DNA of 64,000 nt. Origin: Chaetoderma sp. LZ-2023a. Its lineage: Eukaryota > Mollusca > Caudofoveata > Chaetodermatida > Chaetodermatidae. Each line of letters opens with the position of its first letter. Position 1 is the stretch's first letter. Positions 3,153 through 54,721 of this stretch are shown here, piece after piece. The notes beneath the pieces were generated by a model. It saw only the letters and a list, made by a program, of their open reading frames with translations, did not search any database and was not told the origin of the DNA. The translations under genes were made by a program, and so were the position numbers. Location of the stretch: contig CM067360.1 of the NCBI GenBank assembly GCA_034401795.1, positions 124,289,901-124,353,900 on the forward strand, read 5' to 3'.

Positions 3153-3255
3153 CGGTGAGAGTGGAGCTGGTAAGACGGAGAGCACAAAGTTTATCATTAA
3201 ACAGTTGATGGACCTTTGTAGGAGCAACACACAACTAGAACAACAAATACTCATG
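3153..3255 (+). CDS. Unconventional myosin motor domain, P-loop exon
   Basis: The exon follows a pyrimidine-rich acceptor (TTTGTCTTGCAG at 3141-3152), starts with the last base of a codon, and ends in phase 0 before donor GTACGT at 3256. It encodes the myosin ATP-binding P-loop GESGAGKTES and the following helix, ending LEQQILM. In myosins this loop binds the nucleotide phosphates. The next exon, 53 kb away, continues the expected order with [11 protein letters not shown]. The class (III, VII or another unconventional type) cannot be settled by eye. The last 18 bases of the exon are also the first 18 bases of the tandem repeat that fills the following intron. The upstream exon is outside the window. 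Confidence 0.93.
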
Positions 3256-6200
3256 GTACGTAGCATACTGTAGACATCATGATCTCATCCCATAGTGAAC
3301 AACAAATACTCATGGTACGTAGCATACTGTAGACATCATGATCTCATCCCATAGTGAACAACAAATACTCATGGTACGTAGCATACTGTAGACATCATGA
3401 TCTCATCCCATAGTGAACAACAAATACTCATGGTACGTAGCATACTGTAGACATCATGATCTCATCCCATAGTGAACAACAAATACTCATGGTATGTAGC
3501 ATACTGTAGACATCATGATCTCATCCCATAGTGAACAACAAATACTCATGGTATGTAGCATACTGTAGACATCATGATCTCATCCCATAGTGAACAACAA
3601 ATACTCATGGTATGTAGCATACTGTAGACATCATGATCTCATCCCATAGTGAACAACAAATACTCATGGTACGTAGCATACTGTAGACATCATGATCTCA
3701 TCCCATAGTGAACAACAAATACTCATGGTACGTAGCATACTGTAGACATCATGATCTCATCCCATAGTGAACAACAAATACTCATGGTACGTAGCATACT
3801 GTAGACATCATGATCTCATCCCATAGTGAACAACAAATACTCATGGTACGTAGCATACTGTAGACATCATGATCTCATCCCATAGTGAACAACAAATACT
3901 CATGGTACGTAGCATACTGTAGACATCATGATCTCATCCCATAGTGAACAACAAATACTCATGGTACGTAGCATACTGTAGACATCATGATCTCATCCCA
4001 TAGTGAACAACAAATACTCATGGTACGTAGCATACTGTAGACATCATGATCTCATCCCATAGTGAACAACAAATACTCATGGTACGTAGCATACTGTAGA
4101 CATCATGATCTCATCCCATAGTGAACAACAAATACTCATGGTACGTAGCATACTGTAGACATCATGATCTCATCCCATAGTGAACAACAAATACTCATGG
4201 TACGTAGCATACTGTAGACATCATGATCTCATCCCATAGTGAACAACAAATACTCATGGTACGTAGCATACTGTAGACATCATGATCTCATCCCATAGTG
4301 AACAACAAATACTCATGGTACGTAGCATACTGTAGACATCATGATCTCATCCCATAGTGAACAACAAATACTCATGGTACGTAGCATACTGTAGACATCA
4401 TGATCTCATCCCATAGTGAACAACAAATACTCATGGTACGTAGCATACTGTAGACATCATGATCTCATCCCATAGTGAACAACAAATACTCATGGTACGT
4501 AGCATACTGTAGACATCATGATCTCATCCCATAGTGAACAACAAATACTCATGGTACGTAGCATACTGTAGACATCATGATCTCATCCCATAGTGAACAA
4601 CAAATACTCATGGTACGTAGCATACTGTAGACATCATGATCTCATCCCATAGTGAACAACAAATACTCATGGTACGTAGCATACTGTAGACATCATGATC
4701 TCATCCCATAGTGAACAACAAATACTCATGGTACGTAGCATACTGTAGACATCATGATCTCATCCCATAGTGAACAACAAATACTCATGGTACGTAGCAT
4801 ACTGTAGACATCATGATCTCATCCCATAGTGAACAACAAATACTCATGGTACGTAGCATACTGTAGACATCATGATCTCATCCCATAGTGAACAACAAAT
4901 ACTCATGGTACGTAGCATACTGTAGACATCATGATCTCATCCCATAGTGAACAACAAATACTCATGGTACGTAGCATACTGTAGACATCATGATCTCATC
5001 CCATAGTGAACAACAAATACTCATGGTACGTAGCATACTGTAGACATCATGATCTCATCCCATAGTGAACAACAAATACTCATGGTACGTAGCATACTGT
5101 AGACATCATGATCTCATCCCATAGTGAACAACAAATACTCATGGTACGTAGCATACTGTAGACATCATGATCTCATCCCATAGTGAACAACAAATACTCA
5201 TGGTACGTAGCATACTGTAGACATCATGATCTCATCCCATAGTGAACAACAAATACTCATGGTACGTAGCATACTGTAGACATCATGATCTCATCCCATA
5301 GTGAACAACAAATACTCATGGTATGTAGCATACTGTAGACATCATGATCTCATCCCATAGTGAACAACAAATACTCATGGTACGTAGCATACTGTAGACA
5401 TCATGATCTCATCCCATAGTGAACAACAAATACTCATGGTACGTAGCATACTGTAGACATCATGATCTCATCCCATAGTGAACAACAAATACTCATGGTA
5501 CGTAGCATACTGTAGACATCATGATCTCATCCCATAGTGAACAACAAATACTCATGGTACGTAGCATACTGTAGACATCATGATCTCATCCCATAGTGAA
5601 CAACAAATACTCATGGTACGTAGCATACTGTAGACATCATGATCTCATCCCATAGTGAACAACAAATACTCATGGTACGTAGCATACTGTAGACATCATG
5701 ATCTCATCCCATAGTGAACAACAAATACTCATGGTACGTAGCATACTGTAGACATCATGATCTCATCCCATAGTGAACAACAAATACTCATGGTACGTAG
5801 CATACTGTAGACATCATGATCTCATCCCATAGTGAACAACAAATACTCATGGTACGTAGCATACTGTAGACATCATGATCTCATCCCATAGTGAACAACA
5901 AATACTCATGGTACGTAGCATACTGTAGACATCATGATCTCATCCCATAGTGAACAACAAATACTCATGGTACGTAGCATACTGTAGACATCATGATCTC
6001 ATCCCATAGTGAACAACAAATACTCATGGTACGTAGCATACTGTAGACATCATGATCTCATCCCATAGTGAACAACAAATACTCATGGTACGTAGCATAC
6101 TGTAGACATCATGATCTCATCCCATAGTGAACAACAAATACTCATGGTATGTAGCATACTGTAGACATCATGATCTCATCCCATAGTGAACAACAAATAC

Positions 6201-9200
6201 TCATGGTACGTAGCATACTGTAGACATCATGATCTCATCCCATAGTGAACAACAAATACTCATGGTACGTAGCATACTGTAGACATCATGATCTCATCCC
6301 ATAGTGAACAACAAATACTCATGGTACGTAGCATACTGTAGACATCATGATCTCATCCCATAGTGAACAACAAATACTCATGGTACGTAGCATACTGTAG
6401 ACATCATGATCTCATCCCATAGTGAACAACAAATACTCATGGTACGTAGCATACGTGTAGACATCATGATCTCATCCCATAGTGAACAACAAATACTCAT
6501 GGTACGTAGCATACGTGTAGACATCATGATCTCATCCCATAGTGAACAACAAATACTCATGGTACGTAGCATACTGTAGACATCATGATCTCATCCCATA
6601 GTGAACAACAAATACTCATGGTACGTAGCATACTGTAGACATCATGATCTCATCCCATAGTGAACAACAAATACTCATGGTACGTAGCATACGTGTAGAC
6701 ATCATGATCTCATCCCATAGTGAACAACAAATACTCATGGTACGTAGCATACGTGTAGACATCATGATCTCATCCCATAGTGAACAACAAATACTCATGG
6801 TACGTAGCATACGTGTAGACATCATGATCTCATCCCATAGTGAACAACAAATACTCATGGTACGTAGCATACGTGTAGACATCATGATCTCATCCCATAG
6901 TGAACAACAAATACTCATGGTACGTAGCATACTGTAGACATCATGATCTCATCCCATAGTGAACAACAAATACTCATGGTACGTAGCATACGTGTAGACA
7001 TCATGATCTCATCCCATAGTGAACAACAAATACTCATGGTACGTAGCATACTGTAGACATCATGATCTCATCCCATAGTGAACAACAAATACTCATGGTA
7101 CGTAGCATACTGTAGACATCATGATCTCATCCCATAGTGAACAACAAATACTCATGGTACGTAGCATACTGTAGACATCATGATCTCATCCCATAGTGAA
7201 CAACAAATACTCATGGTACGTAGCATACTGTAGACATCATGATCTCATCCCATAGTGAACAACAAATACTCATGGTACGTAGCATACTGTAGACATCATG
7301 ATCTCATCCCATAGTGAACAACAAATACTCATGGTATGTAGCATACTGTAGACATCATGATCTCATCCCATAGTGAACAACAAATACTCATGGTACGTAG
7401 CATACTGTAGACATCATGATCTCATCCCATAGTGAACAACAAATACTCATGGTATGTAGCATACTGTAGACATCATGATCTCATCCCATAGTGAACAACA
7501 AATACTCATGGTACGTAGCATACTGTAGACATCATGATCTCATCCCATAGTGAACAACAAATACTCATGGTACGTAGCATACGTGTAGACATCATGATCT
7601 CATCCCATAGTGAACAACAAATACTCATGGTACGTAGCATACTGTAGACATCATGATCTCATCCCATAGTGAACAACAAATACTCATGGTACGTAGCATA
7701 CTGTAGACATCATGATCTCATCCCATAGTGAACAACAAATACTCATGGTACGTAGCATACTGTAGACATCATGATCTCATCCCATAGTGAACAACAAATA
7801 CTCATGGTACGTAGCATACTGTAGACATCATGATCTCATCCCATAGTGAACAACAAATACTCATGGTACGTAGCATACTGTAGACATCATGATCTCATCC
7901 CATAGTGAACAACAAATACTCATGGTACGTAGCATACTGTAGACATCATGATCTCATCCCATAGTGAACAACAAATACTCATGGTACGTAGCATACTGTA
8001 GACATCATGATCTCATCCCATAGTGAACAACAAATACTCATGGTACGTAGCATACTGTAGACATCATGATCTCATCCCATAGTGAACAACAAATACTCAT
8101 GGTACGTAGCATACTGTAGACATCATGATCTCATCCCATAGTGAACAACAAATACTCATGGTACGTAGCATACTGTAGACATCATGATCTCATCCCATAG
8201 TGAACAACAAATACTCATGGTACGTAGCATACTGTAGACATCATGATCTCATCCCATAGTGAACAACAAATACTCATGGTACGTAGCATACTGTAGACAT
8301 CATGATCTCATCCCATAGTGAACAACAAATACTCATGGTACGTAGCATACTGTAGACATCATGATCTCATCCCATAGTGAACAACAAATACTCATGGTAC
8401 GTAGCATACTGTAGACATCATGATCTCATCCCATAGTGAACAACAAATACTCATGGTACGTAGCATACTGTAGACATCATGATCTCATCCCATAGTGAAC
8501 AACAAATACTCATGGTACGTAGCATACTGTAGACATCATGATCTCATCCCATAGTGAACAACAAATACTCATGGTACGTAGCATACTGTAGACATCATGA
8601 TCTCATCCCATAGTGAACAACAAATACTCATGGTACGTAGCATACTGTAGACATCATGATCTCATCCCATAGTGAACAACAAATACTCATGGTACGTAGC
8701 ATACTGTAGACATCATGATCTCATCCCATAGTGAACAACAAATACTCATGGTACGTAGCATACTGTAGACATCATGATCTCATCCCATAGTGAACAACAA
8801 ATACTCATGGTATGTAGCATACTGTAGACATCATGATCTCATCCCATAGTGAACAACAAATACTCATGGTACGTAGCATACTGTAGACATCATGATCTCA
8901 TCCCATAGTGAACAACAAATACTCATGGTACGTAGCATACTGTAGACATCATGATCTCATCCCATAGTGAACAACAAATACTCATGGTACGTAGCATACT
9001 GTAGACATCATGATCTCATCCCATAGTGAACAACAAATACTCATGGTACGTAGCATACTGTAGACATCATGATCTCATCCCATAGTGAACAACAAATACT
9101 CATGGTACGTAGCATACTGTAGACATCATGATCTCATCCCATAGTGAACAACAAATACTCATGGTACGTAGCATACTGTAGACATCATGATCTCATCCCA

Positions 9201-12200
9201 TAGTGAACAACAAATACTCATGGTACGTAGCATACTGTAGACATCATGATCTCATCCCATAGTGAACAACAAATACTCATGGTATGTAGCATACTGTAGA
9301 CATCATGATCTCATCCCATAGTGAACAACAAATACTCATGGTACGTAGCATACTGTAGACATCATGATCTCATCCCATAGTGAACAACAAATACTCATGG
9401 TACGTAGCATACTGTAGACATCATGATCTCATCCCATAGTGAACAACAAATACTCATGGTATGTAGCATACTGTAGACATCATGATCTCATCCCATAGTG
9501 AACAACAAATACTCATGGTACGTAGCATACTGTAGACATCATGATCTCATCCCATAGTGAACAACAAATACTCATGGTACGTAGCATACTGTAGACATCA
9601 TGATCTCATCCCATAGTGAACAACAAATACTCATGGTACGTAGCATACTGTAGACATCATGATCTCATCCCATAGTGAACAACAAATACTCATGGTACGT
9701 AGCATACTGTAGACATCATGATCTCATCCCATAGTGAACAACAAATACTCATGGTACGTAGCATACTGTAGACATCATGATCTCATCCCATAGTGAACAA
9801 CAAATACTCATGGTACGTAGCATACTGTAGACATCATGATCTCATCCCATAGTGAACAACAAATACTCATGGTACGTAGCATACTGTAGACATCATGATC
9901 TCATCCCATAGTGAACAACAAATACTCATGGTACGTAGCATACTGTAGACATCATGATCTCATCCCATAGTGAACAACAAATACTCATGGTACGTAGCAT
10001 ACTGTAGACATCATGATCTCATCCCATAGTGAACAACAAATACTCATGGTACGTAGCATACTGTAGACATCATGATCTCATCCCATAGTGAACAACAAAT
10101 ACTCATGGTATGTAGCATACTGTAGACATCATGATCTCATCCCATAGTGAACAACAAATACTCATGGTACGTAGCATACTGTAGACATCATGATCTCATC
10201 CCATAGTGAACAACAAATACTCATGGTACGTAGCATACTGTAGACATCATGATCTCATCCCATAGTGAACAACAAATACTCATGGTACGTAGCATACTGT
10301 AGACATCATGATCTCATCCCATAGTGAACAACAAATACTCATGGTACGTAGCATACTGTAGACATCATGATCTCATCCCATAGTGAACAACAAATACTCA
10401 TGGTACGTAGCATACTGTAGACATCATGATCTCATCCCATAGTGAACAACAAATACTCATGGTACGTAGCATACTGTAGACATCATGATCTCATCCCATA
10501 GTGAACAACAAATACTCATGGTACGTAGCATACTGTAGACATCATGATCTCATCCCATAGTGAACAACAAATACTCATGGTACGTAGCATACTGTAGACA
10601 TCATGATCTCATCCCATAGTGAACAACAAATACTCATGGTACGTAGCATACTGTAGACATCATGATCTCATCCCATAGTGAACAACAAATACTCATGGTA
10701 CGTAGCATACTGTAGACATCATGATCTCATCCCATAGTGAACAACAAATACTCATGGTACGTAGCATACTGTAGACATCATGATCTCATCCCATAGTGAA
10801 CAACAAATACTCATGGTACGTAGCATACTGTAGACATCATGATCTCATCCCATAGTGAACAACAAATACTCATGGTACGTAGCATACTGTAGACATCATG
10901 ATCTCATCCCATAGTGAACAACAAATACTCATGGTACGTAGCATACTGTAGACATCATGATCTCATCCCATAGTGAACAACAAATACTCATGGTACGTAG
11001 CATACTGTAGACATCATGATCTCATCCCATAGTGAACAACAAATACTCATGGTACGTAGCATACTGTAGACATCATGATCTCATCCCATAGTGAACAACA
11101 AATACTCATGGTACGTAGCATACTGTAGACATCATGATCTCATCCCATAGTGAACAACAAATACTCATGGTACGTAGCATACTGTAGACATCATGATCTC
11201 ATCCCATAGTGAACAACAAATACTCATGGTACGTAGCATACTGTAGACATCATGATCTCATCCCATAGTGAACAACAAATACTCATGGTACGTAGCATAC
11301 TGTAGACATCATGATCTCATCCCATAGTGAACAACAAATACTCATGGTACGTAGCATACTGTAGACATCATGATCTCATCCCATAGTGAACAACAAATAC
11401 TCATGGTACGTAGCATACTGTAGACATCATGATCTCATCCCATAGTGAACAACAAATACTCATGGTACGTAGCATACTGTAGACATCATGATCTCATCCC
11501 ATAGTGAACAACAAATACTCATGGTACGTAGCATACTGTAGACATCATGATCTCATCCCATAGTGAACAACAAATACTCATGGTACGTAGCATACTGTAG
11601 ACATCATGATCTCATCCCATAGTGAACAACAAATACTCATGGTACGTAGCATACTGTAGACATCATGATCTCATCCCATAGTGAACAACAAATACTCATG
11701 GTACGTAGCATACTGTAGACATCATGATCTCATCCCATAGTGAACAACAAATACTCATGGTACGTAGCATACTGTAGACATCATGATCTCATCCCATAGT
11801 GAACAACAAATACTCATGGTACGTAGCATACTGTAGACATCATGATCTCATCCCATAGTGAACAACAAATACTCATGGTACGTAGCATACTGTAGACATC
11901 ATGATCTCATCCCATAGTGAACAACAAATACTCATGGTACGTAGCATACTGTAGACATCATGATCTCATCCCATAGTGAACAACAAATACTCATGGTACG
12001 TAGCATACTGTAGACATCATGATCTCATCCCATAGTGAACAACAAATACTCATGGTACGTAGCATACTGTAGACATCATGATCTCATCCCATAGTGAACA
12101 ACAAATACTCATGGTACGTAGCATACTGTAGACATCATGATCTCATCCCATAGTGAACAACAAATACTCATGGTACGTAGCATACTGTAGACATCATGAT

Positions 12201-15200
12201 CTCATCCCATAGTGAACAACAAATACTCATGGTACGTAGCATACTGTAGACATCATGATCTCATCCCATAGTGAACAACAAATACTCATGGTACGTAGCA
12301 TACTGTAGACATCATGATCTCATCCCATAGTGAACAACAAATACTCATGGTACGTAGCATACTGTAGACATCATGATCTCATCCCATAGTGAACAACAAA
12401 TACTCATGGTACGTAGCATACTGTAGACATCATGATCTCATCCCATAGTGAACAACAAATACTCATGGTACGTAGCATACTGTAGACATCATGATCTCAT
12501 CCCATAGTGAACAACAAATACTCATGGTACGTAGCATACTGTAGACATCATGATCTCATCCCATAGTGAACAACAAATACTCATGGTACGTAGCATACTG
12601 TAGACATCATGATCTCATCCCATAGTGAACAACAAATACTCATGGTACGTAGCATACTGTAGACATCATGATCTCATCCCATAGTGAACAACAAATACTC
12701 ATGGTACGTAGCATACTGTAGACATCATGATCTCATCCCATAGTGAACAACAAATACTCATGGTACGTAGCATACTGTAGACATCATGATCTCATCCCAT
12801 AGTGAACAACAAATACTCATGGTACGTAGCATACTGTAGACATCATGATCTCATCCCATAGTGAACAACAAATACTCATGGTACGTAGCATACTGTAGAC
12901 ATCATGATCTCATCCCATAGTGAACAACAAATACTCATGGTACGTAGCATACTGTAGACATCATGATCTCATCCCATAGTGAACAACAAATACTCATGGT
13001 ACGTAGCATACTGTAGACATCATGATCTCATCCCATAGTGAACAACAAATACTCATGGTACGTAGCATACTGTAGACATCATGATCTCATCCCATAGTGA
13101 ACAACAAATACTCATGGTACGTAGCATACTGTAGACATCATGATCTCATCCCATAGTGAACAACAAATACTCATGGTACGTAGCATACTGTAGACATCAT
13201 GATCTCATCCCATAGTGAACAACAAATACTCATGGTACGTAGCATACTGTAGACATCATGATCTCATCCCATAGTGAACAACAAATACTCATGGTACGTA
13301 GCATACTGTAGACATCATGATCTCATCCCATAGTGAACAACAAATACTCATGGTACGTAGCATACTGTAGACATCATGATCTCATCCCATAGTGAACAAC
13401 AAATACTCATGGTACGTAGCATACTGTAGACATCATGATCTCATCCCATAGTGAACAACAAATACTCATGGTACGTAGCATACTGTAGACATCATGATCT
13501 CATCCCATAGTGAACAACAAATACTCATGGTACGTAGCATACTGTAGACATCATGATCTCATCCCATAGTGAACAACAAATACTCATGGTACGTAGCATA
13601 CTGTAGACATCATGATCTCATCCCATAGTGAACAACAAATACTCATGGTACGTAGCATACTGTAGACATCATGATCTCATCCCATAGTGAACAACAAATA
13701 CTCATGGTACGTAGCATACTGTAGACATCATGATCTCATCCCATAGTGAACAACAAATACTCATGGTACGTAGCATACTGTAGACATCATGATCTCATCC
13801 CATAGTGAACAACAAATACTCATGGTACGTAGCATACTGTAGACATCATGATCTCATCCCATAGTGAACAACAAATACTCATGGTACGTAGCATACTGTA
13901 GACATCATGATCTCATCCCATAGTGAACAACAAATACTCATGGTACGTAGCATACTGTAGACATCATGATCTCATCCCATAGTGAACAACAAATACTCAT
14001 GGTACGTAGCATACTGTAGACATCATGATCTCATCCCATAGTGAACAACAAATACTCATGGTACGTAGCATACTGTAGACATCATGATCTCATCCCATAG
14101 TGAACAACAAATACTCATGGTACGTAGCATACTGTAGACATCATGATCTCATCCCATAGTGAACAACAAATACTCATGGTACGTAGCATACTGTAGACAT
14201 CATGATCTCATCCCATAGTGAACAACAAATACTCATGGTACGTAGCATACTGTAGACATCATGATCTCATCCCATAGTGAACAACAAATACTCATGGTAC
14301 GTAGCATACTGTAGACATCATGATCTCATCCCATAGTGAACAACAAATACTCATGGTACGTAGCATACTGTAGACATCATGATCTCATCCCATAGTGAAC
14401 AACAAATACTCATGGTACGTAGCATACTGTAGACATCATGATCTCATCCCATAGTGAACAACAAATACTCATGGTACGTAGCATACTGTAGACATCATGA
14501 TCTCATCCCATAGTGAACAACAAATACTCATGGTACGTAGCATACTGTAGACATCATGATCTCATCCCATAGTGAACAACAAATACTCATGGTACGTAGC
14601 ATACTGTAGACATCATGATCTCATCCCATAGTGAACAACAAATACTCATGGTACGTAGCATACTGTAGACATCATGATCTCATCCCATAGTGAACAACAA
14701 ATACTCATGGTACGTAGCATACTGTAGACATCATGATCTCATCCCATAGTGAACAACAAATACTCATGGTACGTAGCATACTGTAGACATCATGATCTCA
14801 TCCCATAGTGAACAACAAATACTCATGGTACGTAGCATACTGTAGACATCATGATCTCATCCCATAGTGAACAACAAATACTCATGGTACGTAGCATACT
14901 GTAGACATCATGATCTCATCCCATAGTGAACAACAAATACTCATGGTACGTAGCATACTGTAGACATCATGATCTCATCCCATAGTGAACAACAAATACT
15001 CATGGTACGTAGCATACTGTAGACATCATGATCTCATCCCATAGTGAACAACAAATACTCATGGTACGTAGCATACTGTAGACATCATGATCTCATCCCA
15101 TAGTGAACAACAAATACTCATGGTACGTAGCATACTGTAGACATCATGATCTCATCCCATAGTGAACAACAAATACTCATGGTACGTAGCATACTGTAGA

Positions 15201-18673: not shown

Positions 18674-18765
18674 AAAGAGAACACACATGTTTTTCAGTCA
18701 TAAGCTTTTCTTGCTCATTAACGTTTTTATTGGTGTTATTTTGGAAGTGATAAGACCTGATTTGG

Positions 18766-19096: not shown

Positions 19097-19103
19097 TATA
19101 AAG
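19097..19103 (+). promoter_or_regulatory. TATA-like box inside the gag intron
   Basis: TATAAAG in the context GGCCTGGTATAAAGGTC. It is kept in A1, A3 (38455), A4 (46370) and A5 (62589). If used, transcripts would start downstream of gag exon 1. Motif match only. Confidence 0.3.
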
Positions 19104-43120: not shown

Positions 43121-43959
43121 TAGCTGATTTCCTCTGTCACCTGTATGATGCCTATAGCCTCAAGCCTAACTCTATTGCTGGTTAAAAGTCAGCTTTAATG
43201 TCTGTTATTCCTTGCTTGGCTAAGAGGGGAAGTGATGAAGTAAATACATTAAATGTATTAATTAAAGGCATGGGCAATCTAAGACCAAGGAATCCCCCTG
43301 TGATTCCGTCTTGGAGTTTATCGCTAGTGCTTCAAGTACTAGGTGATAAGCCTTTTGAACCACTTAGTTCCATTTCTATGAAACTATTAACACTGAAGAC
43401 TGTGTTTTTAATTGCTGCGGCCTCGGCTAGGCGTAGAAGTGAAATTCATGCCTTATCAGCCAAGGATGACCGTTTTGTGGTTTCAGGGGAAGGCCTTAAG
43501 CTGCTACCTAGGATTAATTTCTTGGCTAAGAATCAGTCGTTGAAATATCCAGGTCAACCTATTGTTTTGCCTGCTTTGACTAGATATGATCCTAATTCTA
43601 AAGCATGGTGTCCCGTCCGGGCGCTTCTCCGGTACAAACAACGTACATCGGAGTGGCGCACCGACCAGTCGGCGTTATGGTTGTCATATATTGAACCCCA
43701 TGGCAGGGCTTCTAAGGACACCATTTCCAGGTGGATTGTAGAATGCATTCAGTTTTGTCATAAATCCGCCACCGGGAAGCAGGTTGACGTGGCCAAGGCT
43801 CACAGTGTCCGCGGCGTAGTGACATCCACTGCCCTTTTTAATGGGGTCCCTGTGGATGATATTATGTCGGTGGCTCAGTGGCACTGTGAGTCAAGTTTTA
43901 CAGACCATTATCTCCGTGACACCTCTAATCCTCTCGCCTTGTCGATTTTGAAAAAATAA
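41061..43959 (+). pseudogene. DIRS A3 tyrosine recombinase frame, broken
   Basis: The overlap frame is open from the gag region to the 41997 insertion, closes at 42038, and reopens through the shift. A TAT-to-TAA change at 43183-43185 interrupts the N-terminal part of the recombinase domain. From 43198 the last 253 codons are open with SARRRSEIHAL, HSVR, QWH and DHYLRD intact. The catalytic half survives but the DNA-binding half is cut off. Confidence 0.85.
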
Positions 43960-44489
43960 CTAGGCTTATATTTTTGATGGGGTTTCCTCATTGCTTATAT
44001 ATTTCACAATTAATTTATGGAAACAACCACTTTTTTGGGACTGCATCGTTCTTCACCAATGGGAAGAGGATGTCAGCAGCCATTTCAACAAGGTCAGTCT
44101 TGTGCATGGGTTGTCCATTGTTGATTGTCTTGTCACGTTACCCGTTATTAATATGATGATGGTTTTGTGTATTTATGTGGTTCATTGTTGAGAGTATACG
44201 AAAATGGAGTTTTTTCGTCTCTGTCCTGTAGTACATGGCACTTGTACGTAGAGAGCGTATAGGACATTGAGGTCATTCGACTCTTCCTCCCAGGAAGGAG
44301 GGGGGGAAGCGCATATGACATTCGGTCATCTCTCATACATCGGTGGTGTTATCCGATGGTTAGTCAAATCCTGACTGTTTTTTCATACAGTTTCAGAAGT
44401 TTAAGTGCCTTAAACGCAGAAAAGCGTATAGGGATGAGCTGGTCTTTTGACCTCGCCTCCCTCCCGCCGAATTCACTGTTGAATTCTGG
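43960..44489 (+). other. A3 3' untranslated segment
   Basis: Homologous to the A2 segment at 24614-25146. The first 120 bp are shared with A4 up to the point where A4 is cut off. No gene recognised. Confidence 0.55.
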
Positions 44490-44589
44490 CAATATCAAAA
44501 GTATTAGGGAGGTAAGTATACTCTTGATGTGAAATAAACGAAATCAAGGATTTCTTTTTTCACGAGAGAGTTGATACTTACCTCCCTAG
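44490..44589 (+). repeat. A3 internal complementary region
   Basis: Reads CTCTTGATGTGAAA then TAAACGAAATCAAGG. Both differ from A2 by one base, and each difference matches A3's own ends (TTTCACATCAAG and CCTTGATTTCGTTTA). Confidence 0.9.
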
Positions 44590-44657
44590 ATACGGACCCG
44601 GCCTCTCCACCCCACAGAGGCTCGGTCTTCAGGCTCTTAATAGTTGCATGTGTATCA

Positions 44658-44872
44658 GCCAATAAATTAGTCAGAGGAAGTGCTAGTCTGCGCATGCGCG
44701 GTGGTGGGGCTGGCATCCGCCAGACTACGCTCTGACTCCCTGCCCAGTAGGGGCACCTGACTGTTTTAATCTGAGTGTTTATTGAGTGAAAGCCAATATT
44801 TAGCAATATCAAAAGTATTAGGGAGGTAAGTATCAACTCTCTCGTGAAAAAAGAAATCCTTGATTTCGTTTA
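44658..44872 (+). repeat. A3 right inverted terminal repeat
   Basis: Reverse complement of the left repeat, with right-specific end CCTTGATTTCGTTTA at 44872. Confidence 0.88.
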
Positions 44873-45757
44873 GTATACATCATGATCTCATCCCATAGTG
44901 AACAACAAATACTCATGGTATGTAGCATACTGTAGACATCATGATCTCATCCCATAGTGAACAACAAATACTCATGGTATGTAGCATACTGTATACATCA
45001 TGATCTCATCCCATAGTGAACAACAAATACTCATGGTATGTAGCATACTGTAGACATTATAATCTCATCCCATAGTGAACAACAAATACTCATGGTTGTA
45101 GCATACTGTAGACATTATAATCTCATCCCATAGTGAACAACAAATACTCATGGTTGTAGCATACTGTAGACATCATGATCTCATCCCATGGTGAACAACA
45201 AATACTCATGGTATGTAGCATACTGTAGACATTATAATCTCATCCCATAGTGAACAACAAATACTCATGGTTGTAGCATACTGTAGACATCATGATCTCA
45301 TCCCATAGTGAACAACAAATACTCATGGTATGTAGCATACTGTAGACATCATGATCTCATCCCATAGTGAACAACAAATACTCATGGTACGTAGCATACT
45401 GTAGACATCATGATCTCATCCCATAGTGAACAGCAAATACTCATGGTATGTAGCATACTGTAGACATCATGATCTCATCCCATAGTGAACAACAAATACT
45501 CATGGTATGTAGCATACTGTAGACATCATGATCTCATCCCATGGTGAACAACAAATACTCATGGTATGTAACATACGTGTAGACATCATGATCTCATCCC
45601 ATAGTGAACAACAAATACTCATGGCGTGTAGCATACTGTAGACATCATGATCTCATCCCATAGTGAACAACAAATACTCACGGTATTTAGCATACTGTTG
45701 ACATCATGGTCTCATCCCATAGTGTACAACAAATACTCATGGTATGTAGCATACTGT
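44873..45757 (+). repeat. 59-bp tandem array, block 4 (about 15 units)
   Basis: Diverged units, several with CATGGTTGTAGC (two bases shorter) and ATTATAATC. The last few units before A4 copy the variant order found before A3 (CATGGTGAAC, then CATACGTGTAG, then GTATTTAGC with GTTGACATCATGG). Confidence 0.93.
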
Positions 45758-45949
45758 TTTCACATCAAGAGTATACTTACCTCCCTAATACTTTTGATAT
45801 TGCTAAATATCGGCTTTCACTCAATAAACACTCAGATTAAAACAGTTAGGTGCCCCTACTGGGCAGGGAGTCAGAGCGTAGTCTGGCGGATGCCAGCCCC
45901 ACCACCGCGCATGCGCAGACTAGCACTTCCTCTTTGCTAATTTATTGGC
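45758..45949 (+). repeat. A4 left inverted terminal repeat
   Basis: Matches the A3 left end. Its partner is lost with the 3' end of the element. Confidence 0.85.
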
Positions 45950-46041
45950 AGAGAGTCTACACATGTTTTTGTGCTAGTGCTTTTCTTGGCTCAATTCTTA
46001 GTGTTTTTGTGAAAATTTGGAAGTGTTTATCCCTGATAAAG

Positions 46042-46092
46042 ATGGCAGGAAGGATGACTTCGCCAGAGGAGGGCCCAGGACCTTTAAATCAG
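46042..46092 (+). CDS. DIRS A4 gag exon 1
   Basis: ATG at 46042, peptide MAGRMTSP to GPLNQ, donor at 46093; the intron of 766 bp ends in TTTCAG at 46858. An upstream in-frame ATG at 45850 extends the frame into the inverted repeat, but that part is not kept in A2. Confidence 0.6.
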
Positions 46093-46858
46093 GTGACTTC
46101 TAGTAAAATTAGCGAGTTTTGTCCCCGGTGTAATGTGTTTCCGGGACTCGCGCTTACCGTGATAAGCGCCTTGTTTAGTTGGTTTATTTCAACTAGGTGC
46201 TATATCATTCTAATCTCTCTTTGTGTTTATGTCCGCAGGTCTGTGTGACGACAGGTAATGGACATCACATCAGCAGAGGGTTTGTTTCTCTCCACCATGG
46301 TTCCATTTCCTACTAATACTGTTAGGTTATCTAACCAAAAATTTTATGTCCAGTGAGTCGGAGGCCTAGTATAAAGGTCTTCTCACTTTGCCCTCTTGAT
46401 CCAATTCCTTCCCCTAGAGGTGGAGAGAGTTAAGAGGCGTTCAGTTGGTGGAGTGCTCCAGTTCATCACGTTGGATGGTTTGTCTATACAAGGTGTCAGG
46501 TATCTAATTATTGATATGAGGTGATGTTAATTATTTAGAGGAAAGGAAGATAATTAACAGTATTTGCCATTGTTATCAGTATATATCTGATGGTTGTGTA
46601 GTCGAAATGTCCATTCTGCACATGTTCTGGTTAGAGATACAATTCGTCCTTGCACTTGGATGTTTGTTGGGGATCGATTTTTTCCTGTCATAGGATTAAT
46701 GACGTCATAATCAGCCTTGCTCTTTATTAACAATTAAAGTTGTCCGAAGCTGGTTTTCTGATGAATATTGATCTTTATGATCATTTCCTTCTCTTGAGTT
46801 GGTGAGTTTCTGAGCTTAACTAGATTGCTCATACTCCTCGTCCTTTGCCCTGTTTCAG

Positions 46859-48909
46859 AGACCTGGTTGTGCGTCCTGTGGACGGTTTTTGAGGGACAAG
46901 TTTGTGCCTCATCTCTGTTATCAGTGTAGCCCCTGTGGTCCCTTGCTTAATTGCGAGATATGTAAGCACTGGGGGGGCGAGCTAATGTCCGAATTCTTGT
47001 GCTTGCAGGCGAAGGACAAGGTGGTGGAGGAGGACAAGAAGAAGCAGAAAAGAGAGGTTGTGAGTAAGAAGGGTAAGAGGAAGGCCCGTCCGCGGTGGAC
47101 ATGGAGGCCTTCCGGACCGAGATGTTGGGAGAGATGAGGACAATAAAGGATTTGGTTCCAGAGTTGCTTCGTGGCATGCTTCCTGGACCAAATCCTTTGC
47201 TGGCCCCATCATCTGCTTCGGAGCAGGTAATCCCCACCTCTGAATCACCTTTCCTTAGTACGCTTCCGTTGTTCGAAGATTCAGAGGTGGCCCCATTAGA
47301 GGGGGCGTTCCACGACCCTGGCAGCAGGCTTAGTGGCGCGCCGAATAGGGACCGTGGACGGTTGTCGCTGGAACCCGCGGGCTGCTTATCAGTCCAGGGG
47401 TTTCCGCACGCCGCGGGTGCCAGTACCTCGTATGGCACCTTCCCTGGCCAGTCCGGGTTAGCTCTCTTTGCTGACCCGGAGTCTAATCTGTCTGGCCAGG
47501 AGGATGAGGATTACCTGTTGGGGTCGCCGTCTGAGGACGTGGCCATGGATTATGACGCCTGTGCACCCCTCGCGGGGAATACAGGCGACTTATTCCACGG
47601 TTCTACTCATGCAGGGGTAGAATCCACGGTTCAGACTGTGGCCCTGGGCGCTGAGGGCCAGCGTTACCGCATACCTCGGCTTGCCGAGAGTGTCGCTGGT
47701 GCTGGCCGGGGCCGTGGTGGGGCGGTATATGCCCCGCGCTCTACCACGGCGCCTGCTCCTGGTCAAGCCAGTGAGATTAGCATGCCGGTGTTATCAGGCC
47801 CGCATGCTCTCCCTGGCTTGCCAGGGATATCAGCGTATCCGCCGTCAAGCTCTGTTGCTTGCGCTCAGGAGGAAGACGAAGGCCCCCGTCTTGTAGAGCG
47901 CTCGCAGCTAGCCACGGAGGAGGATTGGTCTGACGCTTGCCAGTGGTTGGTGAGTGTTAGACCAGATCTGCCCGTGGAGCAGTCGGCTAGCCAGCGTGAT
48001 CACAGGCCGTGGTTAGCTGGTAAGCCTACTGCTAACGCTATGCCTTCTCTGCCGCTGGCAGAGCATGTCGTTGACATGTTCGAGGCGGCGGAGACGTCCA
48101 TTAAGTCGAGTGGACGTCTCGCTAAGGCCCCGCGCGAGGTGGCCAGGCGTTGCCGCATCGTGCCCCTGGATTACCAGCGGTACGGTGTGGTACCTAAGCC
48201 GAGCGTGGATGACCGTGCGGCTTTGGGTGAGGATGCGCGGCCGGGCTCCCGTTCTGACACGGGAGTCTTGTGTTCGAACGCGTTGCGTTCAGCAAATACC
48301 GCGTTGCGTGATGCGGAGGAGAGTGGGAGGGCTTCGATTGCCGCTCTGTCCCACGTCTCCCAGCTGTTACAAGGGGTAGTAACAGCATCCGCATCGCGCC
48401 AGCCAAGTCCGGTCACAGTCCAGCGAGCCATCCAGGATGGTATCAACCTGGCTCTGGACTGTATGACGCGGGCGGTGACCAGGAGTGTCCGGGCAAGGCG
48501 CACATTTGCCTTGGACAATCTGTGCCCGTCCCAGGACCTGTACAATAGGCTACTGCGTACGCCTATGACAGGTCCTGGTCTCTTTGGAGGTGAGGGGTGT
48601 AGGCACCTCCAGGAGACGGTTACTCTGGTCAATAACCAGAGGGCGCTGCGCGAGCAGTTTGAGGTGCTTCGTCGTGCTAACGTTCGCACCGCACCCCCTG
48701 CGTATCGTCCCCTGCAGGCTCGAGGTGGTAGTGGCCAGGTCAGAGGCCAACCACCATCGCAGCGTCGGCCTCGGCCGCGTGCGATTCGGCCAGCAGCGAG
48801 GGGGGCGCAGGCTCCTCAGGCGCAGTCAGCCAGGCAGCCGCCCGCGCACCGAGGTGCGCGCGGTGCTGGTCGTGGCGCGCGAGGATCTGGGCGTGGTAAT
48901 CGTTCCTGA
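46859..48909 (+). pseudogene. DIRS A4 gag-like protein, exon 2, frameshifted
   Basis: The cysteine array and basic segment are intact, then one base is missing near 47087 (AAGGCCCGTCC against AAGGCCTCGTCC in A3). This sends the frame to a stop at 47137. The rest of gag is open in the other frame from 47095 to 48909 and keeps the RG-rich tail ending RGSGRGNRS. Confidence 0.85.
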
Positions 48910-51040
48910 TGGGACGCTTACCGCGGTGAGAACCGCTCCAGTGTTTCTGGCAAGGGAGACAGTGCCGCTCTTGCACTCCTTATGTCCACCTCTATCCCTA
49001 GGTGGACCGGTGGGAGGCCGGCTAGCCGACCACATGCAAGAGTGGGAACGGTTAACTCAGGACCGTTTAGTCTTGCGATGGCTTTCAGTCGGGTATCATC
49101 CCGATTGGATGACAGGCCCGCCATCGCGACTGTCTCTAGTGCCGATCTGGACTCCAAATCCGAGAGATCCAGAGCAAAGGTTGTGTATCGAGGAGGAAAT
49201 AAATTCCCTCATACAAAAAGGAGCTATTCAGCCGGCACAGAGGTGTCCGGGCTTCTATTCAACCCTGTTCTTAGTAACAAAAAACACCGGAGGGTGGAGA
49301 CCAATTCTCAACCTCAAGCCATTGAACCAGTTCATAGAGACGCCCAGTTTCAAGATGGAGACTGTGCGCTCGGTGTTGGCGGGGTTAGAGAGGGGAATGT
49401 GGACAGCGTCGATAGATTTGAAGGACCCTTATTTCCACATCCCCATACACAGGAGTTTCCGTCGCTTCCTGAGATTTGCATTCCAGGGCAGACAGTGGGA
49501 ATTCAGGGTGTTACCCTTCGGAATTTCCACGGCTCCTCGGGTTTTCACCCGTGTGGTTCTTGCGATCACCGCATACCTCCGCAGGAGAAGCATAGCAGTC
49601 CACACGTACATAGACGACTGGCTGTTGAAAGCGCACACCCAGGAAAGTTTATCGGCCAGTCTGGAGATTGTTTTGAAGACTCTCACAGACTTGGGCTGGA
49701 TGATCAATTTCCCAAAATCAGAGCTGACTCCATCCCAGAAGTTTGTTTACCTGGGGATGTTCTTCAATCTAGAGACAGGATATGTTTATCCTACTCAGGG
49801 GAGAGTGCAGAAACTCATCTCATTAATTCAGTCAGTGTGCGACAGTCGTCATGTCCTGGCACGGGTTTACTTGAGAATGCTGGGGTTGATGGTTTCATTG
49901 GAACCAGTCATTCCTCAGGCCGCTTTACGCAGGCGGCCGATCCAGTTATTTCTCATGACACAATGGACCCAGAGTACAGGTTCGCTGGACTCGAACGTGT
50001 CAGTGTTGGCGCCTCTGATTCATCACCTGCAATGGTGGTTGGACACAGAGAATCTCTTGGTGGGGGTTATGCTAACCCCTCCCCACCCTCAGGTGACTGT
50101 GTATACAGATGCATCGATGGAGGGCTGGGGGGCTTGCCTGGAAGAATCCACGATATCAGGGCTTTGGAATCCGGAACAGTCAAAGGAACATATAAATCTA
50201 CTGGAGCTAAGAGCAGTAGTCCTGGGCCTGGAACATTTCTTACAGAGAGTTCAGGGCAAGATTGTTCTTATTCGTTCAGACAACTCAACAGTTGTGACTT
50301 ACATAAACCGCCAGGGCGGAACAAAGTCGCCCAGTCTCTGTATGATGACATGGAGACTGCTTTGTTGGTGCCTGGATCACCAGATTACCTTGAAAGCAGT
50401 TCATATTCCGGGAAGGTTAAATCTGCTAGCAGACTCATTGAGCCGAAGGATGAGTGTTTTACCCACGGAATGGCAACTAAATCAATGTGTGGCGGATCGT
50501 CTGTTCGACCATTGGGGGAAACCCAACATTGATTTGTTCGCAACGAAGAAGAATGCGAAGATGACGACGTACGTCTCTCCGATTCCGGATCCAAGCGCTT
50601 TCGCAACAGATGCGTTAGCTATCAGCTGGGGGAGAATGTATGCATACGCATTCCCTCCAGCAATCCTGATTCCAAAAATTCTTCAGAAAATCAGACAAGA
50701 GGAATGCCAAGTGCTTCTGATCGCCCCGGATTGGCCAAGCCGATCATGGTATACGGATCTGCTGGACCTTCTGGTCTGCAATCCGGTTCCTCTGCCTCTG
50801 ATGGACAATATTATCTTCCAGGGCAAGGCCCTTCACAACAATCCGTCAATGTTCAGATTGACTGCGTGGATGTTGTCAAGGAATCTAGAATTAAGGAGGG
50901 CTTTTCTGAGCAAGCAGCCATGTTTATGGCCAAAGCCAGGAGGGGGTCAACCTCCAGAGCATATAATTATAAAATCAACAGATTTGCAGAATGGTGCTCA
51001 AAAAGATGTATTGATCCAATGGATTCATCTATTCAGGTAG
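48584..51040 (+). CDS. DIRS A4 RT-RNase H-methyltransferase-like protein
   Basis: An open frame of 818 codons; the part homologous to A2 starts near 48850. YIDD, TDAS, SDNS and the methyltransferase-like segment are intact. The first RT motif reads DLKDPY rather than DLKDAY (near 49420-49432), a Pro next to a catalytic-site Asp, which probably harms activity. The element cannot mobilise itself, but this ORF is unbroken. Confidence 0.88.
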   Translation: MEVRGVGTSRRRLLWSITRGRCASSLRCFVVLTFAPHPLRIVPCRLEVVVARSEANHHRSVGLGRVRFGQQRGGRRLLRRSQPGSRPRTEVRAVLVVAREDLGVVIVPDGTLTAVRTAPVFLARETVPLLHSLCPPLSLGGPVGGRLADHMQEWERLTQDRLVLRWLSVGYHPDWMTGPPSRLSLVPIWTPNPRDPEQRLCIEEEINSLIQKGAIQPAQRCPGFYSTLFLVTKNTGGWRPILNLKPLNQFIETPSFKMETVRSVLAGLERGMWTASIDLKDPYFHIPIHRSFRRFLRFAFQGRQWEFRVLPFGISTAPRVFTRVVLAITAYLRRRSIAVHTYIDDWLLKAHTQESLSASLEIVLKTLTDLGWMINFPKSELTPSQKFVYLGMFFNLETGYVYPTQGRVQKLISLIQSVCDSRHVLARVYLRMLGLMVSLEPVIPQAALRRRPIQLFLMTQWTQSTGSLDSNVSVLAPLIHHLQWWLDTENLLVGVMLTPPHPQVTVYTDASMEGWGACLEESTISGLWNPEQSKEHINLLELRAVVLGLEHFLQRVQGKIVLIRSDNSTVVTYINRQGGTKSPSLCMMTWRLLCWCLDHQITLKAVHIPGRLNLLADSLSRRMSVLPTEWQLNQCVADRLFDHWGKPNIDLFATKKNAKMTTYVSPIPDPSAFATDALAISWGRMYAYAFPPAILIPKILQKIRQEECQVLLIAPDWPSRSWYTDLLDLLVCNPVPLPLMDNIIFQGKALHNNPSMFRLTAWMLSRNLELRRAFLSKQPCLWPKPGGGQPPEHIIIKSTDLQNGAQKDVLIQWIHLFR

Positions 51041-51879
51041 TAGCTGATTTCCTCTGTCACCTGTATGATGCCTATAGCCTCAAGCCTAACTCTATTGCTG
51101 GTTATAAGTCAGCTTTAATGTCTGTTATTCCTTGCTTGGCTAAGAGGGGAAGTGATGAAGTAAATACATTAAATGTATTAATTAAATGTATGGGCAATCT
51201 AAGACCAAGGAATCCCCCTGTGATTCGGTCTTGGAGTTTATCGCTAGTGTTTCAAGTACTAGGTGATAAGCCGTTTGAACCACTTAGTTCCATTTCTATG
51301 AAACTATTAACACTGAAGACTGTGTTTTTAATTGCTGCGGCCTCGGCTAGGCGTAGAAGTGAAATTCATGCCTTATCAGCCGAGGATGACCGTTTTGTGG
51401 TTTCAGGGGAAGGCCTTAAGCTGCTACCTAGGATTAATTTCTTGGCTAAGAATCAGTCGTTGAAATATCCAGGTCAACCTATTGTTTTGCCTGCTTTAAC
51501 TAGATATGATCCTAATTCTAAAGCATGGTGTCCCGTCCGGGCGCTTCTCCGGTACAAGCAACGTACATCGGAGTGGCGCACCGACCAGTCGCCGTTATGG
51601 TTGTCATATATTGAACCCCATGGCAGGGCTTCTAAGGACACCATTTCCGGGTGGATTGTAGAATGCATTCAGTTTTGTCATAAATCCGCCACCGGGAAGC
51701 AGGTTGACGTGGCCAAGGCTCACAGTGTCCGCGGCGTAGTGACATCCACTGCCCTATTTAATGGGGTCCCTGTGGATGATATTATGTCGGTGGCTCAGTG
51801 GCACTGTGAGTCAAGTTTTACAGACCATTATCTCCGTGACACCTCTAATCCTCTCGCCTTGTCGATTTTGAAAAAATAA
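48982..51879 (+). pseudogene. DIRS A4 tyrosine recombinase frame with one nonsense codon
   Basis: Open from the gag stop through most of RT, then TGA at 50530-50532 (CATTGA against CATCGA in A3), then open again from 50704 to 51879 in the same frame. The 391-codon second part holds the whole recombinase domain with SARRRSEIHAL, HSVR, QWH and DHYLRD. If the recombinase starts internally this copy could still make it. Substitutions near 51190-51250 and TISGW for TISRW are private to this copy. Confidence 0.82.
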
Positions 51880-51997
51880 CTAGGCTTATATTTTTGATGG
51901 GGTTTCCTCATTGCTTATATATTTCACAATTAATTTATGGAAACAACCACTTTTTTGGGACTGCATCGGTCTTCACCAATGGGAAGAGGATGTCAGC

Positions 51998-54721
51998 TAT
52001 GTAGCATACTGTAGACATCATGATCTCATCCCATAGTGAACAACAAATACTCATGGTATGTAGCATACTGTAGATATCATGATCACATCCCATAGTGAAC
52101 AACAAATACTCCTGGTATGTAGCATACTGTAGACATCATAATCTCATCCCATAGTGAACAACAAATACTCATGGTGTGTAGCATACTGTAGACATCATGA
52201 TCTTATCCCATAGTGAACAACAAATACTCATGGCATGTAGCATACTGTAGACATCATGATCTCATCCCATAGTGTACAACAAATACTCATGGTATGTAGC
52301 ATACTGTAGACATCATGATCACATCCCATAGTGAACAACAAATACTCCTGGTATGTAGCATACTGTAGACATCATAATCTCATCCCATAGTGAACAACAA
52401 ATACTCATGGTGTGTAGCATACTGTAGACATCATGATCTTATCCCATAGTGAACAACAAATACTCATGGTATGTAGCATACTGTAGATATCATGATCACA
52501 TCCCATAGTGTACAACAAATACTCACGGTATGTAGCATACTGTAGACATCATGGTCTCATCCCATAGTGAACAACAAATACTCATGGTATGTAGCATACT
52601 GTAGATATCATGATCACATCCCATAGTGAACAACAAATACTCACGGTATGTAGCATACTGTAGATATCATGATCACATCCCATAGTGAACAACAAATACT
52701 CCTGGTATGTAGCATACTGTAGACATCATGATCTCATCCCATAGTGAACAACAAATACTCATGGTATGTAGCATACTGTAGACATCATGATCTCATCCCA
52801 TAGTGAACAACAAATACTCATGGTATGTAGCATACTGTAGACATCATGATCTTATCCCATAGTGAACAACAAATACTCATGGTCCGTAGCATTCTTGTAG
52901 ACATCATGATCTCATCCTATAGTGAACAACAAATACTCATGGTGTGTAGCATACTGTAGACATCTTGATCTCATCCCATAGTGAACAACAAATACTCATG
53001 GTGTGTAGCATACTGTAGACATCATGATCTCATCCTATAGTGAACAACAAATACTCATGGTTGTAGCATACTGTAGACATCATGATCTTATCCCATAGTG
53101 AACAACAAATACTCTTGGTATGTAGCATACTGTAGACATCATGATCTCGTCTCATAGTGAAGAACAAATACTCATGGTACGTAGCATACTGTAGACATCA
53201 TGATCTTATCCAATAGTGAACAACAAATACTCATGGTACGTAGCATACTGTAGACATCATAATCTTATCCCATAGTGAACAACAAATACTCACGGTATTT
53301 AGCATACTGTAGACATCATGATCTCATCCTATAGTGAGCAACAAATACTCGTGGTATGTAGCATACTGTAGACATCATGATCTCATCCCATAGTGAACAA
53401 CAAATACTCACGGTATTTAGCATACTGTTCACATCATGGTCTCATCCCATAGTGAACAACAAATATTCATGGTATGTAGCATACTGTATACCACATGATT
53501 ACATCCCATAGTGAACAACAAATACTCATGGTATGTAGCATACTGTAGACATCATGATCTCATCCCATAGTGAACAACAAATACTCATGGTATGTAGCAT
53601 ACTGTAGATATCATGATCACATCCCATAGTGAACAACAAATACTCCTGGTATGTAGCATACTGTAGACATCATAATCTCATCCCATAGTGAACAACAAAT
53701 ACTCATGGTGTGTAGCATACTGTAGACATCATGATCTTATCCCATAGTGAACAACAAATACTCATGGCATGTAGCATACTGTAGACATCATGATCTCATC
53801 CCATAGTGTACAACAAATACTCATGGTATGTAGCATACTGTAGACATCATGATCACATCCCATAGTGAACAACAAATACTCATGGTATGTAGCATACTGT
53901 AGATATCATGATCACATCCCATAGTGAACAACAAATACTCATGGTACGTAGCATACTGTAGACATCATGATCTTATCCAATAGTGAACAACAAATACTCA
54001 TGGTACGTAGCATACTGTAGACATCATAATCTTATCCCATAGTGAACAACAAATACTCACGGTATCTAGCATACTGTAGACATCATGATCTCATCCTATA
54101 GTGAATAACAAATACTCGTGGTATGTAGCATACTGTAGACATCATGATCTCATCCCATAGTGAACAACAAATACTCACGGTATTTAGCATACTGTTGACA
54201 TCATGGTCTCATCCCATAGTGAACAACAAATATTCATGGTATGTAGCATACTGTATACCACATGATTACATCCCATAGTGAACAACAAATACTCATGGTA
54301 TGTAGCATACTGTAGACATGATCTCATCCCATAGTGAACAACAAATACTCATGGTATGTAGCATACTGTAGACATGATCTCATCCCATAGTGAACAACAA
54401 ATACTCACGGTATTTAGCATACTGTTGACATCATGGTCTCATCCCATAGTGAACAACAAATACTCATGGTATGTAGCATACTGTAGACATCATGATCTCA
54501 TCCCATACTGAACAACAAATACTCATGGTATGTAGCATACTGTAGACATCATGATCTCATCCCATAGTGAACAACAAATATTCACGGGATGTAGCATACT
54601 GTAGACATCATGATCTCATCCCATAGTGAACAACAAATACTCCTGGTGTGTAGCATACTGTAGACATCATGATTTAGCATACTGTAGACATCATGATCTC
54701 ATCCCATAGTGAACAACAAAT
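51998..54721 (+). repeat. 59-bp tandem array, block 5 (about 46 units), most diverged
   Basis: Units differ at many sites (CTCCTGG, CTCACGG, GATCACATCC, ATCTTATCC, GTGTGTAGC, GTATACCACATG). Sets of variants recur: a series at 52070-52290 returns near 53605-53815, and one at 53170-53480 returns near 53950-54260. Those are older block duplications. The last unit ends at about 54721. Confidence 0.93.

Follow-up and report, generated by a model that had tools for sequence, protein, structure and literature searches.

A myosin exon-intron boundary repeated in about 412 tandem copies within one intron that also holds four DIRS-type elements

The window analysed here, a whole stretch of 64,000 nucleotides, contains exons of a myosin motor gene on the forward strand. 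Five exons and the splice site that precedes the intron of interest are arranged as follows.

3153..3255, + strand: myosin P-loop exon, encoding GESGAGKTESTK...EQQILM; its 18 last bases (3238-3255) open unit 1 of a tandem array
3256..3261, + strand: true 5′ splice site, in unit 1 (GTACGT), phase-0 join to 56471 in frame
56471..56573, + strand: next exon, 103 nt, joined in frame to 3255
58034..58187, + strand: downstream myosin exon
58461..58566, + strand: downstream myosin exon
61459..61599, + strand: downstream myosin exon

When the five exons are joined the frame is intact and the product matches Pfam Myosin_head (E 1.8e-62). Six further stretches of the same myosin motor were found, three upstream and three downstream. 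Among seven paralogous loci with the motif, three have an AG acceptor at the same intron position, and in one of these three the exon ends at the same codon, before an ordinary donor, GTGAGA. No second near-identical copy of the gene appeared among 23 matches. An earlier note on this DNA had taken the first repeat unit (3238-3296, with exon bases 3238-3255 and the donor from 3256) to be the real junction. The in-frame join of 3255 to 56471, the gapless alignment to other myosins of the protein across it, and the intron position common to three paralogs support that claim and rule out a wrong exon boundary.

The repeat unit of 59 bp comprises the last 18 coding bases of the myosin P-loop exon, followed by 41 intron bases that begin with the GT donor. 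Its copies form five blocks, separated by four transposable elements.

3238..18480, + strand: array block 1, 258.2 copies of 59 bp, 0.16% divergence
18481..25528, + strand: DIRS-type element A, RT frame 21588-23774
25529..29555, + strand: array block 2, 68.0 copies, 1.3% divergence
29556..36344, + strand: DIRS-type element B, RVT_1 E 2.9e-23, RT_RNaseH above cut-off
36345..37844, + strand: array block 3, 25.4 copies, 4.2% divergence
37845..44872, + strand: DIRS-type element C, 92% identical to A, assigned by DNA and inverted termini
44873..45757, + strand: array block 4, 15.0 copies, 4.1% divergence
45758..51997, + strand: DIRS-type element D, 98% identical to C, 3′ end missing
51998..54721, + strand: array block 5, 45.5 copies up to 54673, then a broken end; 5.7% divergence, with internal duplications 13 and 26 units long
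54947..54979, + strand: diverged remnant of the unit's intron portion, about 225 bp past the array end

The copies in each block were counted by TRF, which gives 412.1 in total across 3238..54721; a separate parse of the array yields 408 full units. The composition, coordinates and approximate copy number (412) first proposed for the array are thereby confirmed. The 51.5-kb stretch does not form a single array, however; its repeats lie in five blocks (24,331 bp) split by four DIRS-type elements (27,105 bp). Similarly, the copies were called near-identical, which fits the first 258 full units (0.16% off the main unit) but not the last 45 (5.7%).

Exact copies of the unit's core are confined to this locus: a search of the 2.44-Gb genome for 27 bases of it gives 334 matches, every one of them inside the window. 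The core is absent from 100 shuffles, against 334 matches in the real window, so the array is no chance match. A dispersed satellite that merely resembles the exon was likewise rejected on the local position of 334/334 exact matches, an exact search being one that misses diverged copies elsewhere. Of four flanking stretches tested for relics, 54947..54979 alone stood out, with a local alignment score of 42, whereas 200 shuffles never exceeded 30. It is very unlikely that the assembly has inflated or garbled the copy number. Long stretches of identical units, with as many as 90 in a row (5.3 kb) at 10149-15458 in block 1, are hard to assemble, but the DIRS copies between the blocks differ from one another and the units of blocks 3 to 5 have many private variants. 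The array itself is not in question; doubt is confined to the length of block 1, whose exact copy number is a statement about the assembly, verifiable by long reads only. In the same assembly, the two COX1-family matches both sit on contig C18, in surroundings that look bacterial.

DIRS elements are characterized by a reverse transcriptase/RNase H, a tyrosine recombinase, inverted termini with an internal complementary region, and the lack of a target-site duplication. Element A matches RVT_1 (E 4.5e-21), with RT_RNaseH below cut-off. Overlapping its RT frame is a second frame (21677-24613) without a Pfam match of its own, the C-terminal part of which resembles, by eye, the integrase-like frame of D. 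A weak match to an N-terminal SAM-like integrase domain, below curated cut-offs, was found in B and in frame 50704-51879 of D; the tested frames of A and C gave no integrase match, and a catalytic domain was matched in none of the frames scanned. Inverted termini and an internal complementary region are present in A, B and C (in A, for example, 18496-18673 versus 25489-25313 and 25190-25248 versus 25528-25471), and D is without its right end. At A nothing of the target is repeated, the unit phase running from 10 to 11; at C no duplication was seen by eye (phase 31 to 32), provided that one unit variant is accepted which the automated comparison did not accept; the target junction of B is ambiguous by 2 bases. 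Element B belongs to a different family: where it aligns with A, C and D, identity is about 70-72%. Its insertion place within the 59-bp unit is the same as that of A. C and D, at 98% identity, are each preceded by the same rare unit variant. The elements resemble DIRS retrotransposons in their RT (matched in A and B), inverted termini, internal complementary region and lack of target duplication, and perhaps in an overlapping frame with a weak integrase-like domain. Set against the general features given above, the peculiarity here is that a single intronic satellite houses four copies of two families, each oriented like the gene. Derivation of C and D from one insertion copied along with the array was considered and thought unlikely, their sites being two bases apart within the unit. 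The earlier account of the array mentions neither the four DIRS elements nor the age gradient described next.

Divergence from the main unit increases away from the exon, being 0.16% in the nearest block and 5.7% in the most distant one, which makes the exon-side copies look youngest. With donor position +4 left out, differences per unit in blocks 1-5 are 0.004, 0.119, 1.54, 1.43 and 2.44. Such a gradient might instead result from fragmentation, in which DIRS insertions cut off small blocks that then exchange more rarely and drift apart, with unequal exchange keeping the largest block homogeneous. This possibility, somewhat unlikely on balance, agrees with the most uniform block being the largest (258 copies), followed by the 68-copy block, and with the trend of divergence by position reaching p 0.05 in none of the five blocks. 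It is at odds with the greater divergence of the 45-copy block than of the 15- and 25-copy blocks; moreover unit 1, at the edge where exchange is expected to be least effective, is identical to the main unit over 59/59 bases. In simple simulations, a strictly defined exon-edge burst arose in 0/270 and 0/360 runs of uniform duplication and deletion and in 1/720 runs of edge-biased growth. Under a looser definition, a far end at least 20 times more diverged, it arose in 3/360 uniform and 22/720 edge-biased runs. If it reflects age, the gradient would allow the birth of a satellite to be followed from a coding exon.

Donor position +4 is T in 74/83 full units of blocks 3 to 5 and C in 244/258 full units of block 1; the gene's own donor likewise has C. 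The C-to-T change is too frequent relative to other sites for simple CpG decay, which suggests that the two forms represent two unit lineages. Since the gene's donor carries C, the dominant form in the young copies next to the exon, satellite sequence may have replaced that of the gene's working donor and perhaps still does so, with selection holding the coding bases of unit 1, which in turn re-seed the array. This sequence of events is unlikely; if it took place, the concerted evolution of a satellite would have come to include a functional splice site in a conserved gene.

GT is kept in 401/408 full units (4 of these without the next base), GC is found in 6 and neither in 1, and an exact ATG/GTACGT or ATG/GTATGT occurs in 369/408. 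A plausible donor in every unit, as the earlier note had it, is thus borne out by GT for 401 of the 408. A stop codon lies shortly beyond the first of these donors.

3271..3273, + strand: in-frame TAG, read on use of any later donor

Translations with 1 to 7 extra units include this TAG each time, in keeping with the prediction that a later donor leads to it. Scored on a donor-strength matrix, the unit 1 donor reaches 7.0 and the four other exon donors of the gene 3.1 to 8.5. On the same matrix, 12/402 GT sites in the non-array intron stretches score at least as high as unit 1, so strong unused GTs are ordinary in this gene. In the old units the five donor positions are mutated at 6.8 and 7.1% (figures inflated by internal duplications), exon-derived positions at 1.6 and 3.1%, and intron-derived positions at 2.5 and 4.4%; an excess of donor mutations is not claimed because of that inflation.

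How donor 1 might be singled out can be approached through RNA structure. The array donors could pair mutually through a self-complementary TACGTA core and be hidden from U1, leaving donor 1, which is flanked by other units on a single side, more open. In the predicted structures the donor six-mer is 3.9 times more open in unit 1 than in inner units, and donor cores are predicted to pair with cores in other units. However, 12% of 300 shuffled units give a ratio of at least 3.9, which is not significant, and inner donors are equally or more closed in 44% of the 300; these shuffles retained the donor palindrome, so the palindrome itself lies outside their test. Mutual pairing is accordingly a highly improbable basis for donor choice.

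The array is probably an intronic minisatellite that arose by tandem duplication across the exon-intron boundary, with donor 1 used by exon definition and the array tolerated and functionless. A short duplication would have created a second donor, after which recombination or replication slippage, with the latest burst at the exon-side edge, would have expanded the array to about 412 copies. Exon definition and the example of human ABCA7 suggest that donor 1 is used because the acceptor at 3152 is paired with it across an exon of 103 nt. No such partner would exist for the remaining donors, which would be mostly inert pseudo-sites. Some transcripts may take the unit 2 donor, reach the TAG and undergo nonsense-mediated decay (NMD); use of donor 1 with some leak to this pathway is what the human analogy leads one to expect. 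Greater array length would chiefly slow or weaken splicing to exon 56471-56573. The array would have no function of its own, and minisatellites are common here: arrays with a period of at least 10 and at least 4 copies occupy 19,711/189,901 bases across 19 stretches of the genome.

The array might alternatively serve as a functional, length-dependent brake, its U1 sites or the transcription delay reducing the joining of 3153-3255 to 56471-56573 and thereby tuning the amount of myosin. Exon-19 skipping increases with array length in ABCA7, where exon 19 follows the array (PMC5954066), and enzyme activity is lower with longer arrays in human CBS (PMC5188458). Skipping of exon 56471-56573 would shift the frame because the exon is 103 nt long. 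An effect is not a function, however; nothing shows selection on array length, and minisatellites abound in the sampled stretches of the same genome, so that a braking role is doubtful. Within the preferred reading of a functionless minisatellite, "tolerated" may nevertheless be too mild a word, given the lower activity that accompanies longer CBS arrays.

The locus offers a natural test of donor choice by the spliceosome where hundreds of near-identical sites lie in cis and differ mainly in their distance from the exon. Several known systems bear on it, as described in the accessible parts of the sources cited. The gigantic introns of Drosophila Y-linked genes are also satellite-filled, transcribed and spliced out, but they are of megabase scale, and no mention of splice-junction-derived satellites was found in that part of the source (PMC6508621). 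Large or polymorphic intronic minisatellites occur in other non-mammalian genes, namely earthworm metallothionein (intron 1) and seabream growth hormone, whose repeats are not stated in the available text to include a splice donor (PMC12783039, PMC3045353).

Closer counterparts exist in human genes. In the IFI6 (6-16) minisatellite, repeat units act as alternative donors, two downstream units being used to give three mRNA species (PMC4526556). The 31-bp CBS VNTR, c.1444_1467+7(16_21), lies at the exon 13-intron 13 boundary (PMC2630376, PMC5188458). As we read these coordinates, its unit consists of 24 exon and 7 intron bases and hence includes the donor, making it, as here, a tandem unit of exon end and intron start. 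It differs in size (31 bp, 24 + 7, in 16-21 copies, versus 59 bp, 18 + 41, in 412 copies); the review terms the stretch non-coding, and the accessible text does not mention retrotransposons (PMC5188458, PMC2630376). In a further human duplication, a 68-bp insertion in CBS that carries an intron 7/exon 8 junction, splicing strongly prefers the more distal site of the two (PMC2630376), so that "first wins" is no general rule.

The human ABCA7 intron-18 VNTR begins with the exon-18 donor and comprises 12 to about 427 copies of a C-rich 25-bp unit, spanning at most 10.7 kb (PMC5954066). This refutes the claim that no case of a donor amplified on such a scale has been described. The question of how the first donor prevails over hundreds of competitors is a real one, but not without precedent: the second-unit donor of ABCA7 accounts for about 2% of steady-state transcripts, independently of length in cell lines (PMC5954066). 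This value understates leakage, because frameshifted isoforms rise when NMD is blocked (PMC5954066). The two arrays are alike in starting at the donor of the preceding exon, and use of unit 2 leads to a frameshift and NMD in ABCA7. ABCA7 differs in that its unit is without coding bases, its array is polymorphic in people and its splicing has been measured. The present array shares two features of this kind of repeat, a tandem unit that spans a 5′ splice site and a plausible donor in nearly every copy. Since CBS and ABCA7 hold shorter arrays of the same sort, it does not found a new kind but adds a large member to one already known; its repeats by themselves, leaving out the retrotransposons, exceed the longest ABCA7 array more than twofold in length. 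It also extends to another animal a type of repeat known from three human genes.

The myosin reading frame runs without interruption across the junction from which the array departs, on the following features:

3153-3255, plus strand: myosin exon, ending at the junction
56471-56573, plus strand: myosin exon
58034-58187, plus strand: myosin exon
58461-58566, plus strand: myosin exon
61459-61599, plus strand: myosin exon

The five joined exons encode an open frame of 202 residues that matches the Pfam myosin motor (E 1.8e-62) and solved myosins (1.9e-47). A 17-residue peptide spanning the junction aligns without gaps to all 16 relatives aligned (taken from 120 listed of 5,422 matches), and the same motor continues in three more stretches upstream and three downstream. 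The closest named records among the matches listed go by the names MYO3B, VIIb or IIIb-like. Judged by its sequence, the exon-intron junction at 3255/3256 is genuine, and the earlier note was right to take the first unit for the real junction.

The 59-bp tandem repeat occupies five blocks between 3238 and 54721 (258.2 + 68.0 + 25.4 + 15.0 + 45.5 = 412.1 copies), bearing out the earlier count of about 412 copies of an exon end and its donor. Four elements of 6.2-7.0 kb interrupt it, one between each pair of blocks. Across the intron (3256-56470; 53,215 bp), repeats total 24,331 bp, of which 18 bases are exonic, and DIRS elements 27,105 bp. An exact search of the whole 2.44-Gb assembly with a 27-base core of the unit returned 334 matches on one strand and 0 on the other, all 334 inside the window (G000:C2:124289901-124353900, assembly and contig); diverged copies elsewhere would escape such a search.

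By their sequence the interrupting elements, A (18481-25528), B (29556-36344), C (37845-44872) and D (45758-51997), are probable retrotransposons of DIRS type; no hit to the catalytic domain of the recombinase came up in the frames tested. Reverse transcriptase is found in A and B, RNase H above the cut-off in B only, weak N-terminal integrase-like domains in B and D, and inverted termini with an internal complementary region in A, B and C. Identity is 92% between A and C and 98% between C and D. Where both ends are readable, no target duplications were seen: A plainly lacks one, C lacks one on inspection by eye, and in B two bases stay ambiguous. Two further copies lie at the edges:

1-2160, minus strand: A-family DIRS copy, opposite direction, cut by the window edge
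61972-64000, plus strand: A-family DIRS copy, cut by the window edge

Six DIRS elements are thus in or bordering the 64 kb. A and B, of two different families, sit at the identical place in the unit, after GAACAACAAAT, and C and D lie 21 and 23 bases beyond it. An insertion-site preference within the unit is possible; with four insertions, coincidence would not be rare. The reverse transcriptase frame at 21588-23774 matches a JGI record (P0122) at 98% identity, and its best organism-named match is Pinctada imbricata (47%). Several of its matches are labelled Sedimenticola and are probably host DNA in symbiont bins. On contig C18 of the same assembly (loci L050, L051) lie what read as a cyoABC-like oxidase operon of bacterial origin and another oxidase gene of bacterial type; a bacterial symbiont or contaminant thus seems to be part of the assembly. 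By eye, two kinds of element are repeated in the introns, at 54800-54905, 57350-57440 and 60450-60530: short palindromic, MITE-like elements with common ends (CTGTTGAATATTTTGAA...) and a second inverted-repeat family (...AATAGTCTTCTCTTGG...).

The exact main unit accounts for 257 of the 408 full units, and mean divergence from it in blocks 1 to 5 is 0.16, 1.26, 4.17, 4.12 and 5.69% (258, 67, 24, 14 and 45 full units). The earlier description of the copies as near-identical does not hold uniformly. With position +4 of the donor left out, divergence and position have a rank correlation of 0.66 over all units, and no trend inside any single block reaches p 0.05. A diverged relic of the unit's intron part persists at 54947-54979, ~225 bp past the array end. 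The simplest reading of these sequences is that the newest copies adjoin the exon. The gradient did not emerge from simple models of growth, and its origin through fragmentation of the array by the DIRS insertions is a live alternative.

An 11-residue motif just past the junction is present in seven paralogous loci. Three (L029, L031/L032, L034) have an AG acceptor immediately ahead of it, in L037 an acceptor-like AG lies a little beyond this point, and in three (L022, L026, L038) coding runs through with no intron at this point. The L034 paralog ends its exon at the same codon, with an unrepeated donor, GTGAGA. Its same intron holds a different array (L043:4168-8577; 29 bp x 152.5 copies) that begins ~119 bp past the donor, lacks GT in its consensus unit on the gene strand, and is directly followed by its reverse complement (L043:8578-9145). 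Intronic arrays close to exons are therefore no rarity here. None of the 23 matches is a near-identical further copy of the myosin gene in the window. Minisatellites take up 19,711 of 189,901 bases in 19 stretches of ~10 kb from the surroundings of the gene and its paralogs; the stretches were picked for the gene, not at random. With so many minisatellites in the sampled stretches, an array engulfing a splice site is not unexpected here. One 34-bp minisatellite of ~50 copies (L015:9034-10000 and L016:1-733), with TATTCAG in most units seen, stops ~48 bp ahead of the acceptor that precedes a further exon of the myosin gene.

GT is kept in 401 of the 408 full units and GC stands in 6, in keeping with the proposal that each unit offers a plausible 5' splice site. 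Every donor except the first brings in the TAG, as predicted and as translation of seven cases confirmed. Nothing significant in predicted RNA folding explains why donor 1 would win. By analogy, human ABCA7 would be the best guide to how donor 1 gets picked. A 25-bp array starting with the exon-18 donor varies there from 12 to ~427 copies (PMC5954066), so that the earlier statement that no donor amplification on this scale had been described does not stand. Retention of one unit affects ~2% of ABCA7 transcripts, a share that array length does not change in cell lines, and transcripts with premature stops increase when NMD is blocked; long alleles show more skipping of the next exon, 3.2-fold from one extreme sample to the other and 4.1-fold where two alleles of the same person are compared (PMC5954066). 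From this behaviour, donor 1 would be expected to be fixed by exon definition and part of the transcripts to be lost to NMD, a loss that steady-state RNA would understate. Joining to exon 56471-56573 may possibly be poorer, and skipping of that exon would shift the reading frame. A 68-bp junction duplication in CBS, in which the more distal splice site is preferred (PMC2630376), counts against a simple rule of donor choice.

The literature holds further kin. By the coordinates of the human CBS 31-bp VNTR, written c.1444_1467+7(16_21) (PMC2630376), each unit takes 24 bases from the exon and 7 from the intron, laid out like the unit here; a review relates more repeats to lower CBS activity and terms the stretch non-coding (PMC5188458). 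In IFI6, repeat units serve as alternative donors (PMC4526556). Among open-licence papers, judged mostly from their listed entries, no non-human case came to light, and the passages on the intronic minisatellites of earthworm metallothionein and seabream growth hormone (PMC12783039, PMC3045353) report no donor in the repeat. Given CBS, ABCA7 and IFI6, the array is a new, very long case of an already known repeat type; what is special to it is its length, its single exon-anchored locus, its gradient and the four retrotransposons inside it.
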